This document shows positions 15,486-20,704 of a DNA stretch of 64,000 bases, piece after piece. The stretch comes from Bacteroides sp. (GTDB lineage: Bacteria; Bacteroidota; Bacteroidia; Bacteroidales; Muribaculaceae), in assembly GCA_014801225.1 (NCBI GenBank), contig JAAVEO010000009.1, forward strand, positions 46,199-110,198. The letters run 5' to 3'. Numbering within the stretch: position 1 is the stretch's first letter; every line of letters begins with the position of its first letter. Below the pieces are notes generated by a model. It ran no database searches, had not been told where the DNA came from, and saw only the letters and a list, made by a program, of their open reading frames with translations. Both the position numbers and the translations under genes were made by a program.

Positions 15486-15591
15486 TCCTATATCCCTCTC
15501 TCTATTTTCTCTCTCCGCTCTCCACCTCCTCGCTACCATATTTCTTCTCTCCTTACGCTATCCCTCCCCTCTTCATACCCTAACTTACATT

Positions 15592-15622
15592 GACAGGCAC
15601 GCCTCCTTGCGGCGTGCCTGTC
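15592..15622. terminator. Strong hairpin downstream of the capsule operon
   Basis: GACAGGCACGCC-tccttgc-GGCGTGCCTGTC, 12-bp perfect stem. Confidence 0.7.
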
Positions 15623-15716
15623 GCTATTAAATCTCTTTTACTCCTCTCCCATGGCTTCCCCACAATTCTCCTTTGACGGCCCCTTTCTTCTCTCTGAGAA
15701 GAAAGAAGAGTAGAGA

Positions 15717-16376
15717 TTATTCTACAATGGTATCCAAGCCCGCCAAGAAGTATTTGAAACCCTCGCTATGACCGGCCATTTGCTCAATTACACCTCTTTT
15801 CTTCATGTTTTTAAAAATAGTCTTGTACGCTTTTCTTGCTTTAGAGGAGTTCTTGTTGGTATCCGGAATGCCATCCATGTTGCGTCTGCTTAATTCCTGA
15901 TTCAAGACTTTTATGCAATTATTCGTTTTGCAAGCTCTATTGTCAGTGTAGAACAAGGGTAGAAGCCAACACTCTATTTCATTATGGCAGATTGCAAAAA
16001 TAATGCGATGAATATATTTTTTCCTTATATCGGAAGATAGCTCTCTCATTAATCTCGCCTTTATTTCGGCATGAAGCCGCCGTGGGGACTTTGGTGTGCC
16101 ATCTTTGAAATTATGTGGGATATCGTAGGGCGTGATATGAGAGGAGTCTGTGTCGATCTGAATTATCAGATAATCGTTTAACTGGAGGATAGGCTCTATG
16201 TCATCATCTGAACAATGTTCAAGGACTCTTGACCATCCACCCTCATCCGCTTGGGTATCATTATTGATTTTTGGCTGCACTGCATTCAGAGAGTGATCTC
16301 CCAAATAGCGTGAAACAATATGATTTATAATATTAAATTCAGATACGCCTTCACATATTACTGCAATATTCGCCAT
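15717..16376 (-). CDS. TOPRIM-like (DUF4276/OLD-nuclease-like) protein, partner of the upstream AAA ATPase
   Basis: IAVICEGVSEFNIINHIV (TOPRIM-like Glu), YLIIQIDTDSS (DxD), FAICHNEIECWLLPLF; starts 2 nt after the ATPase stop. Confidence 0.6.
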   Translation of the reverse strand: MANIAVICEGVSEFNIINHIVSRYLGDHSLNAVQPKINNDTQADEGGWSRVLEHCSDDDIEPILQLNDYLIIQIDTDSSHITPYDIPHNFKDGTPKSPRRLHAEIKARLMRELSSDIRKKYIHRIIFAICHNEIECWLLPLFYTDNRACKTNNCIKVLNQELSRRNMDGIPDTNKNSSKARKAYKTIFKNMKKRGVIEQMAGHSEGFKYFLAGLDTIVE

Positions 16377-16378
16377 AA

Positions 16379-17542
16379 TCAGAAATTATTTGGTAATCCG
16401 CCGATATATCCTTTCATCCATGCTTCCGATAAAGAAATATTGGAATCTTTAGGAGCTGATATACGATTGATTTTTGTATGTCCGTCCACATCTCTCCTTA
16501 CCACAAAGAGGCGCTGATCTTCTTTGTTTAAATCTAAGGCGTCCAGTACAAAAGGATTGTGAGTAGTCACAATTACTTGTTTATCATGAAGGGATGCCAA
16601 TTTGATCAGCTCTTTCGTAAACTCACGACATAGTTTCGGATTTAGGGCCGATTCAATATTGTCTATTGCAAAAAAAGCGGGAGTTGTGTCAGAGATAAAC
16701 AGTGTGAAATAGAACAGCAGATATAGGAAGGCCTCATTCGCGCTTCTCTGATCAAAATAATTCAGAGCGGTATCGATATACTGGTCGTAAAGCATGATGG
16801 AATTGTCGCCTGAAAGAGCTTCTGTGGGTATCTTAAGGTCATCAAACCAATCCAAGATACTCATGCATTCAATTATCCGGCTTAAGATGACACTTCCTTT
16901 TTCAGTGGATGCTATTTTCTTCAGATATGAAAAAAGACCGGTACCATCCACTCCCAACACAGTATTATCAGGATTGTCAAAACGCCGTAAAGATCTTTCA
17001 TTGAGAGAGTATATCCTAAAGCCCGTAATCTCTTTATCATATGTAGGCAATCCAAAAGATATTTTCTTTCCGGCTTTCTTTATGGAAATATTTATATTTT
17101 CATCTTTTTCTAAAAACTCGGATAGAAGAATATTTTCTACATCTTTAATAGAGCGAGCGCCGACCTCTTTTAAAGAAGATATGAATTTCTTTGCATTAGT
17201 CTTTCCTCGTTCAATCCATCTTCCGGATTCAACGTCATCAGAAAAATGCATATAAAAACTTTCTTTTATATCTTTAGAAAGCTCGAAAGATACCAAGATA
17301 TCATCTTTCTTGTGATCTTCAAAAGCCGAATACATGAATTGAGGGGACGGAACTCGCATTCCTCTTTTTTCAAGATCATGAACATCAAGTTGGTCCATGC
17401 TTGCGGCGCTTGCAAAGGTTATGGCTTCAAGAATATTGGATTTGCCACAACCATTTTCTCCAATCAGAACATTGAATCGTCCTAATGGAATATCAAGATC
17501 GACAACCGATTTAAAATTCTGTATTTTGATATCTTTCACCAT
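16379..17542 (-). CDS. AAA/ABC-type ATPase (AAA_15/AAA_21, OLD/AriA-like)
   Basis: IKIQNFKSVVDLDIPLGRFNVLIGENGCGKSNILEAI (Walker A), FFAIDNIESALNP (Walker B), VIVTTHNPFVLDAL (H-loop). ORF-track start at 17551 is TTG; ATG at 17542. Confidence 0.85.
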   Translation of the reverse strand: MVKDIKIQNFKSVVDLDIPLGRFNVLIGENGCGKSNILEAITFASAASMDQLDVHDLEKRGMRVPSPQFMYSAFEDHKKDDILVSFELSKDIKESFYMHFSDDVESGRWIERGKTNAKKFISSLKEVGARSIKDVENILLSEFLEKDENINISIKKAGKKISFGLPTYDKEITGFRIYSLNERSLRRFDNPDNTVLGVDGTGLFSYLKKIASTEKGSVILSRIIECMSILDWFDDLKIPTEALSGDNSIMLYDQYIDTALNYFDQRSANEAFLYLLFYFTLFISDTTPAFFAIDNIESALNPKLCREFTKELIKLASLHDKQVIVTTHNPFVLDALDLNKEDQRLFVVRRDVDGHTKINRISAPKDSNISLSEAWMKGYIGGLPNNF

Positions 17543-17552
17543 AGAGTGCAAA

Positions 17553-17588
17553 GGTAATAATTTAATTTGATTTCCCCAAAAGTAATAG
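17553..17588 (-). promoter_or_regulatory. Bacteroidota promoter of the ATPase/TOPRIM operon
   Basis: Minus strand TTTG-N20-TACCTTTG directly upstream of the start codon. Confidence 0.65.
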
Positions 17589-18733: not shown

Positions 18734-20272
18734 TTATTCCTTAGGGGTGAGCGTCACGAGGGGTACCAGCATCTCTTGAAGCGAGATACCTCCATGCTGG
18801 AATGTGCCGTCGTAATACTGTACGTAGTAATTGTAGTTGTTGGGATAGGAGAAGAAATCCTCATTGCAAGCGTAGATGAAGGAGCTGGAAAGATTGGGAG
18901 CCGGTAAGCCGAATTTCTTCGGATTCTTCATCTCATATACCTGCTTGGGATTGTAGCTCAGATTCTTCCCTACCTTATAGCGAAGATTGGTGTTGGTGTT
19001 GCGGTCGCCTACCACCTTTATGGGATTATCCACCCGGATTGTGCCGTGGTCGGTGGTGACGATCACCTTATACTTCAACTCCGCGAGCCGGCGGAAGATA
19101 TCCACAGCGGAAGAATGGCGGAACCATGATTCCGTAAGCGAACGGTAGGCGGCGTCTGAATTCGCCAATTCCCTTATCATCTTCGACTCCGTACGGGCGT
19201 GGGAGAGCATGTCGATAAAGTTGAGCACCACCACATTGAGGGGAAGATTCTTTATGCTGTTGAGTTTTGCCACGAATTTCTCTCCGGCATTGGAATCGTT
19301 GAGTTTGCTATAAGAGAATTTCTCCTTGCGGCGGAAGCGGTCGAGCTGAGTCTGTATAAGTTCGCTCTCATGGATATTAAGACCTTCGTCCTCATCCTCC
19401 TCCACCCATAGCTTGGGAAACATCTCGGCTATCTGCAGCGGCATCAAGCCGGCGAAGATAGCGTTGCGCGCATACTGCGTGGAGGTAGGAAGGATGGTGG
19501 TGTATAGTTCCTCACTCGCATTAAACCATTCCGAGAGGAGGGACTGTACCACTCTCCACTGGTCGAGACGGAAATTATCGATAAGGATGAAGCATACTTT
19601 CTCCCCTTCATCGAGCAGGGGGAATACACGGCGTTTGAATATCTCGTGGCTCATCAGGGGGTGATCATCGGTGGTCACCCATTTCTCATATTCGCGCTTC
19701 ACGAATTTGCAGAAGTTGGAATTGGCATCGCGCTTCTGCATAAGCAGCATCTCCCCCATCGAATTGTCGGTGTCGGCAAGGCGGAGTTCCCAATATACGA
19801 GCTGACGGTATACCTCCTTCCAATCCTCGATATCTCCGGCCATATTGATAAGGGAAGATATCTTCTGAAACTCCTGCTGATAATTGCTTGAGGCCTGTGC
19901 GGCCACGAGTTCGCCGCTATGCAGATTCTTCTTGATGGAGAGGAGTATCTGGTTGGGGTTTACGGGTTTTATGAGATAATCGGCTATCTGGTTGCCGATA
20001 GCCTGATTCATGATATTCTCCTCCTCGCTCTTCGTGATCATGATGACCGGGATATCGGGATGAGTCTGATTGATACGGGCGAGAGTCTCCAGACCGGAAA
20101 TACCGGGCATATTCTCATCGAGCAGGATGAGGGAGAAAGTCTCATTATCGAGCGCATCGAGGGCGTCCCGGCCATTTGAGACGGTAGTGACGTCATACCC
20201 TTTGGCTTTGAGGAAGAGGATATGCGGTTTCAGAAGGTCGATCTCATCGTCGGCCCAGAGAATCTTTTCCAT
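18734..20272 (-). CDS. porX: PorX-type two-component regulator: receiver + PglZ/alkaline phosphatase-like domain
   Basis: N-terminal receiver (KILWADDEIDLLKPHILFLKAKGYDV, LILLDENMPGISGLE) and C-terminal PglZ-like domain (VCFILIDNFRLDQWRVVQSLL, VVVLNFIDMLSHARTE, VIVTTDHGTIRV). Confidence 0.92.
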   Translation of the reverse strand: MEKILWADDEIDLLKPHILFLKAKGYDVTTVSNGRDALDALDNETFSLILLDENMPGISGLETLARINQTHPDIPVIMITKSEEENIMNQAIGNQIADYLIKPVNPNQILLSIKKNLHSGELVAAQASSNYQQEFQKISSLINMAGDIEDWKEVYRQLVYWELRLADTDNSMGEMLLMQKRDANSNFCKFVKREYEKWVTTDDHPLMSHEIFKRRVFPLLDEGEKVCFILIDNFRLDQWRVVQSLLSEWFNASEELYTTILPTSTQYARNAIFAGLMPLQIAEMFPKLWVEEDEDEGLNIHESELIQTQLDRFRRKEKFSYSKLNDSNAGEKFVAKLNSIKNLPLNVVVLNFIDMLSHARTESKMIRELANSDAAYRSLTESWFRHSSAVDIFRRLAELKYKVIVTTDHGTIRVDNPIKVVGDRNTNTNLRYKVGKNLSYNPKQVYEMKNPKKFGLPAPNLSSSFIYACNEDFFSYPNNYNYYVQYYDGTFQHGGISLQEMLVPLVTLTPKE

Positions 20273-20365: not shown

Positions 20366-20704
20366 TTAGTCGTTTTTCAGACTCTCGATATATTTAAGGT
20401 CCACGCCGGTCAATGTACGTATCATATCGGGTGAGAGGCCCTGCTTAAGCATATTCAACACGATTCCACGCATCATTTCCTCTTTACCTTTGGCAATACC
20501 CTTAGCAAAACCCTCGAAATACCCTTCGCAATACCCTTCGAAATAGCCTTTGAAATAACCTTCTTCGCGGGCAGGATTAAGCACATTATTCTGCATCATT
20601 ATTTTGTCAATGTGAGCGTCCCATACGCGATTATCCTTGGGCCAAAGCGTATGCTTCATGGCCCAATCAAAACGGATGTATTCGTTATCCCTATCCATAA
20701 TCAT
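20366..20704 (-). pseudogene. Rpn/PD-(D/E)XK recombination-promoting nuclease family, apparently internally deleted remnant
   Basis: N-terminal DNEYIRFDWAMKHTL and C-terminal EGYFKGYFEGYCEGYFEGFAKGIAKGKEE with little of the catalytic core between (112 aa). Confidence 0.55.

Follow-up and report, generated by a model that had tools for sequence, protein, structure and literature searches.

The window, that is, the whole stretch of 64,000 nucleotides that was analysed, contains two intact minus-strand genes bordering a capsule/polysaccharide operon. They are designated A and B, and the features of the locus are listed below.

15591..15623, no strand assigned: perfect GC-rich hairpin in the gap that separates gene B from the convergent capsule operon
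15717..16376, minus strand: gene B, TOPRIM-like putative nuclease, 219 amino acids, PDC-M31B (divergent DUF4276)
16379..17542, minus strand: gene A, ABC-type (SMC/Rad50/OLD-like) ATPase, 387 amino acids, PDC-M31A
17549..17580, minus strand: Bacteroidota-type promoter TTTG-N20-TACCTTTG, exact match, 6 nt before the ATG of gene A
18734-20272, minus strand: PorX-type response regulator with a PglZ domain, conserved in the genus

The stop codon of gene A is followed after 2 nt by the start of gene B. The ATG at 17542 is the preferred start of gene A, in line with the starts found in the family, and the TTG at 17551 is disfavoured. The initial annotation of this DNA had described two minus-strand reading frames in the order ATPase then TOPRIM with the same 2-nt gap; all of this was reproduced, and the motifs quoted for both proteins are present. 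The end it had set at 17588 takes in the promoter region, beyond the coding sequence. The pair is also AT-richer than its surroundings, as had been noted, with a GC content of 37.9% against 48.2% for the whole window; an equally low GC content occurred in 35 of 622 segments of equal size, nearly all of them in a separate AT-rich stretch in the first 5.5 kb. The pair comes from a MAG that is 68% complete, where it is internal to a 239-kb contig carrying genus-typical genes.

The earlier proposal that the pair has its own promoter is supported by the exact Bacteroidota-type site upstream of gene A, as seven such sites were found in the window against 0.61 expected from shuffling. The six other exact matches lie at 2960, 30010, 32218, 40880, 55594 and 56715. 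Several Bacteroidota relatives likewise have a TAnnTTTG box 12-30 nt ahead of their A reading frame. Because the -7 box ends so close to the ATG, a short-leader or leaderless mRNA is predicted. A scan for sigma-70-type promoters gave sites at chance level only. The hairpin beyond gene B, with folding energies of -25.9 and -27 kcal/mol (z about -7), is likely to be a bidirectional transcription end; no U-tract terminator was called.

Analysis of protein A revealed the Walker A motif GENGCGKSN at residues 28-36 and the stretch FFAIDNIESALNP at residues 290-302, which contains the Walker B motif FFAIDN (D294, N295). Other motifs are the signature-like SANEAF (267-272), TTHN (326-329) and a conserved C-terminus, GGLPNNF. 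A Pfam AAA_21 domain was found, and the structure model has an ABC fold with PtuA of Septu/retrons and SMC as top structural matches and a likeness to Rad50 heads. In the family tree it clusters with two Prevotellaceae sequences (98/94 support), on a long branch, and identity to any sequence found is at most 47%.

Members of the ABC family carry Asp-Glu at the end of the Walker B motif. Among the relatives of protein A the catalytic glutamic acid is replaced by asparagine (the N295 position) in 71 of 72 members, and PDC-M31A proteins have LNP in place of LHP a few residues further on. Since the asparagine is common to 71 of the 72 members, it is a family trait and not a sign of decay. Loss of the Walker B glutamic acid in ABC ATPases slows hydrolysis and stabilises the ATP-bound dimer. 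Given its replacement throughout the family, ATP binding and not fast hydrolysis would be expected to set the switch.

Protein B contains the motifs ICEGVSE (7-13), IQIDTD (72-77) and EIECWLLP (133-140). Comparison of 73 B sequences found five invariant residues, E9, G10, P35, D75 and W137. Aspartic acid occupies position 77 in 58 of the 73 sequences, and D-[ST]-A-E is found in 14 of the remaining 15, a subclade in which the second metal ligand seems to be shifted by one residue (L039, L053, L054, L058, L062, L063, L065, L067, L068, L071-L074 and L087). Candidate metal ligands are E9, D75 and D77; the protein also has an E135-x-W137 motif. The AlphaFold2 model of protein B (pLDDT 92.8, pTM 0.90), made from an alignment without plasmid-derived rows, shows alternating strands and helices; E9 directly follows strand 1 and D75-x-D77 closes strand 3, as in the TOPRIM layout. 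Foldseek searches of this model against the PDB gave no match at E<=1e-3 and no significant solved TOPRIM structure; the weak matches include T6 topoisomerase II and the PARIS complex (8ux9, rank 28). Nothing significant was found among viral structures, where an RloB-like protein was the top match. The Pfam DUF4276 profile (PF14103) scored 21.2 bits, under its gathering cut-off of 30.2 bits, and a profile comparison with DUF4276 proteins aligned the full length at 96% probability (E 2e-9 for a single comparison). The invariant glutamic acid and DxD, the strand order in a confident model and the DUF4276 profile similarity together suggest that protein B is a divergent DUF4276/RloB-type TOPRIM protein, a fold assignment that is well supported but not proven.

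Among known systems, PADLOC gave PDC-M31 as the best family for both proteins, with E-values of 3.6e-67 over the full length of protein A and 2.6e-12 for protein B. At weak scores the PDC-M31A model is unspecific, matching 13 of 14 control genomes, and the match of protein A is the top one by far; the PDC-M31B model matched none of the 14 controls and 67 of the 68 collected B relatives. Protein B of the window is remote from the core of the model, at 2.6e-12 compared with about 1e-90s for the best members. These profile matches place the pair in PDC-M31, which PADLOC catalogues as an unvalidated anti-phage candidate; PDC systems as such have been described as unvalidated candidates (PMC12988326). 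As the family is already catalogued, novelty is modest. Our analysis adds the DN signature, the subclade of protein B with a shifted acidic residue and the P2-hotspot location, and an incomplete search of the literature found no earlier account of these, of PDC-M31 or of DUF4276.

The checks proposed in the initial annotation bear on its reading of the locus as a split OLD/PARIS-like cassette. Assignment of both proteins by PADLOC agrees with a split ATPase-TOPRIM cassette of that general kind, and membership of PARIS itself did not hold, protein B being unmatched by AriB. Foldseek returned an ABC fold for protein A and no significant TOPRIM match for protein B, whose proposed TOPRIM-like nature is upheld by its motifs and predicted layout and not by a match to a solved structure. 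That protein B is divergent and no clear DUF4435 was borne out by an empty DUF4435 search.

The left neighbours of the pair encode a sugar transferase, a sugar-transfer ATP-grasp protein, a PLP decarboxylase and a PylC-like ATP-grasp protein; on the right a Sel1-repeat protein is followed by the PorX-type response regulator. Domain searches could take the PglZ domain at 18737-20272 for a BREX PglZ, an assignment that was rejected since the domain is part of the PorX-type regulator. Pfam recognised nothing in an ORF of 112 amino acids at 20366-20704 (minus strand). One congener (G619, locus L204) carries a piece with 42% identity to it on the downstream side of Sel1, so that the same stray element appears on both sides of the gene cluster.

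The congeners read keep the large-TPR, PorX and Sel1 genes in one cluster and lack the A and B pair, and the region beyond Sel1 differs between most of them. For example, queG follows Sel1 in two congener loci (L200 and L203) and lies about 130 kb away in the present genome. The left neighbour was found at 82% identity in one congener (G619), there on another contig. Full-length protein A was confined to the present genome among 41 genomes of the genus, and full-length protein B to the same genome among 198 of the host family, in which G197 has a match of 60 amino acids (36% identity, E 1e-3); full-length B is also absent from nearly all of 396 genomes of the phylum. No clean empty site was found among congeners, as the sequence past Sel1 varies. 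Absence from congeners together with the differing region beyond Sel1 points to a variable junction and an acquired cassette, and horizontal acquisition at the capsule-locus edge is therefore supported. Conserved synteny of the pair across the genus, named at the outset as evidence that would count against a mobile defence cassette, was examined and not seen: the right flank is kept and the pair is missing.

Homologous pairs were gathered from plasmids, bacterial genomes and viral contigs. A total of 97 A genes scored above 195 bits, and gene B directly follows gene A in 89 of these, mostly within +-45 nt and usually within a few nucleotides. Conservation of the two-gene unit in about 90 unrelated loci is more than chance. 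Remnants of B can still be seen in three or four of the eight exceptions, and four A relatives have no recognisable B. Gene A is intact beside a broken or fragmentary gene B in L032, L081, L013 and perhaps L085; degradation of B while A persists suggests that B is the costly part. The family occurs in at least six phyla (Bacteroidota, Pseudomonadota, Cyanobacteriota, Campylobacterota, Verrucomicrobiota and Planctomycetota), and two PDC-M31 pairs stand in tandem in one Saprospiraceae genome (L052:6001-9452).

In four P2-like contigs (L111, L116, L117 and L118) the cassette and the portal gene gpQ, beside the terminase, are about 15-70 nt apart. Further copies stand between replication and terminase genes (L112 and L114) or by a baseplate gene (L108). 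The genes old and tin occupy the gpA-gpQ interval of P2-like phages, a known defence hotspot (PMC9122126). The cassette is also cargo on mobilizable plasmids of 6-13 kb in Paracoccus (pMARC2) and Acinetobacter. A viral scan with protein B alone and tblastn against phage records found nothing, the ATPase alignment being the better bait. On chromosomes the copies mostly stand alone amid housekeeping genes, and only a minority of 126 neighbours in bacterial genomes gave defence-like matches. Defence is thus argued from the family likeness, from mobility and from carriage by phages, and not from islands.

Overall, we consider it probable that the two genes form an anti-phage cassette of the PDC-M31 type that was acquired horizontally, with an ATPase sensor/keeper and a TOPRIM nuclease effector. 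This division of labour, as in PARIS, is most likely by analogy. Protein A would dimerise or oligomerise around bound ATP and, as sensor and keeper, hold protein B inactive; on sensing a phage product it would free B or switch it on. Protein B, a putative small metal-dependent TOPRIM nuclease, would then cut cellular nucleic acid, which could be tRNA (the AriB case) or DNA (the OLD case), and infection would be aborted.

A reading of the pair as true PARIS (AriA/AriB), its AriB having diverged, is largely refuted and can be given very little weight. Gene order and sizes are alike, protein A also matches AriA models (2.6e-26) and 8ux9 is weakly present in the Foldseek list of protein B, but protein A fits PDC-M31A 40 orders of magnitude better, and the PADLOC AriB model left protein B unmatched even at E<=10 while detecting homologues in two other loci (L214 and L215). 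DUF4435 was found in protein B neither by domain search nor by profile comparison with two DUF4435 proteins, used as single sequences only, and protein B fits DUF4276 instead. PARIS membership was rejected on these grounds. A different function for the same proteins, namely an anti-plasmid or mobile-element exclusion or maintenance module that shields the plasmid or prophage carrying it against competitors or serves as an addiction pair, appears unlikely, although several observations are compatible with it: the pair is a large part of the cargo of the small Paracoccus and Acinetobacter plasmids, it is present in prophage-like contigs, and the three or four loci with a degraded gene B and a retained gene A are what a toxic effector would predict. 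Against this, many copies are chromosomal and solitary, and tested occupants of the P2-like hotspot include anti-phage systems (PMC9122126). Deletion of either PARIS gene singly is also non-toxic (PMC9122126), which argues against a simple toxin-antitoxin for this class.

A decaying, inactive remnant would account for the asparagine at the catalytic position of protein A and for its signature, which reads NEA where 71 of 72 relatives have glycine (NEG) at position 271. It is nevertheless an improbable explanation, as the asparagine belongs to the family, both reading frames are full length and every active-site residue of protein B is kept. Also highly improbable is a housekeeping pair for DNA repair or RNA processing (RecF/RecR- or RNase M5-like): SMC/RecF-type ABC ATPases and TOPRIM are both repair folds, but full-length protein B is missing from 197 of 198 genomes of the host family and nearly all of the phylum, and phages and plasmids carry the pair.

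The same genome contains a fused AriA-AriB (PARIS) gene on another contig (C27:17594-18202 of G000; locus L214:1150-2937, minus strand), with a PADLOC E-value of 8.3e-85, the P-loop GAPGAGKT and the Walker B region FIESPSLFLHP. The organism may therefore carry two ATPase-TOPRIM systems of different families.

A more specific extension of the anti-phage reading is offered tentatively, and we would not expect it to hold in full. PDC-M31 might be a distinct ATPase-TOPRIM class in which loss of the catalytic glutamic acid (DN in 71 of 72) leaves an ATP-loaded clamp with essentially no hydrolysis. Such a one-shot switch would release the nuclease on sensing phage, and the system would work beside PARIS in the same cell with different triggers. 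Pairs of ATPase and TOPRIM proteins make up a large part of bacterial immunity, and most are untested. The present locus supplies a clean two-gene candidate from a gut-type Bacteroidales. It connects PDC-M31 with mobile plasmids and with the defence hotspot of P2 phages, and the family-wide Walker B change leads to a definite prediction, namely that ATP is bound but not rapidly hydrolysed.

PARIS, in which an ABC ATPase (AriA) is paired with a TOPRIM/DUF4435 tRNase (AriB), is activated by anti-restriction proteins and cleaves tRNA-Lys. AriA holds AriB and lets go on sensing phage proteins, and AriB then cuts tRNA (PMC12409363, PMC11455837). The pair of the window resembles PARIS in having the ATPase first and the TOPRIM second as separate genes, and differs in the lack of an AriB or DUF4435 match in protein B. 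Both also lie at hotspots, PARIS at a P4-type one and the PDC-M31 family at the P2-type one (PMC9122126, PMC12409363).

With the OLD family (P2 Old, GajA and the retron-Eco8 effector) the pair shares an ABC ATPase plus TOPRIM and the P2-phage hotspot location. Unlike these, it consists of two proteins with no helicase or reverse transcriptase partner; the ATPase-TOPRIM fusion of OLD Classes 1-3 is replaced by separate ORFs here and in 89 pairs. Protein A matches AbiLi models of AbiL (3e-22), one B relative matches AbiLii, and 17 of 68 B relatives match RloB, all of these more weakly than PDC-M31. HEC-01, a PADLOC Hma-embedded candidate made up of an ATPase and DUF4276, is similar in its DUF4276 profile match and in the ATPase gene just upstream, and protein B weakly matches HEC-01B (1.1e-6). 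The DUF4276-linked ATPases examined for this comparison have a canonical Walker B, [DE]EPE...[LI]HP, in all 13 sequences with a readable motif, in contrast to DN-I-[DE]...LNP in PDC-M31A. It is with PDC-M31 that the pair of the window agrees in order and tight spacing, which are the same as in about 90 loci.
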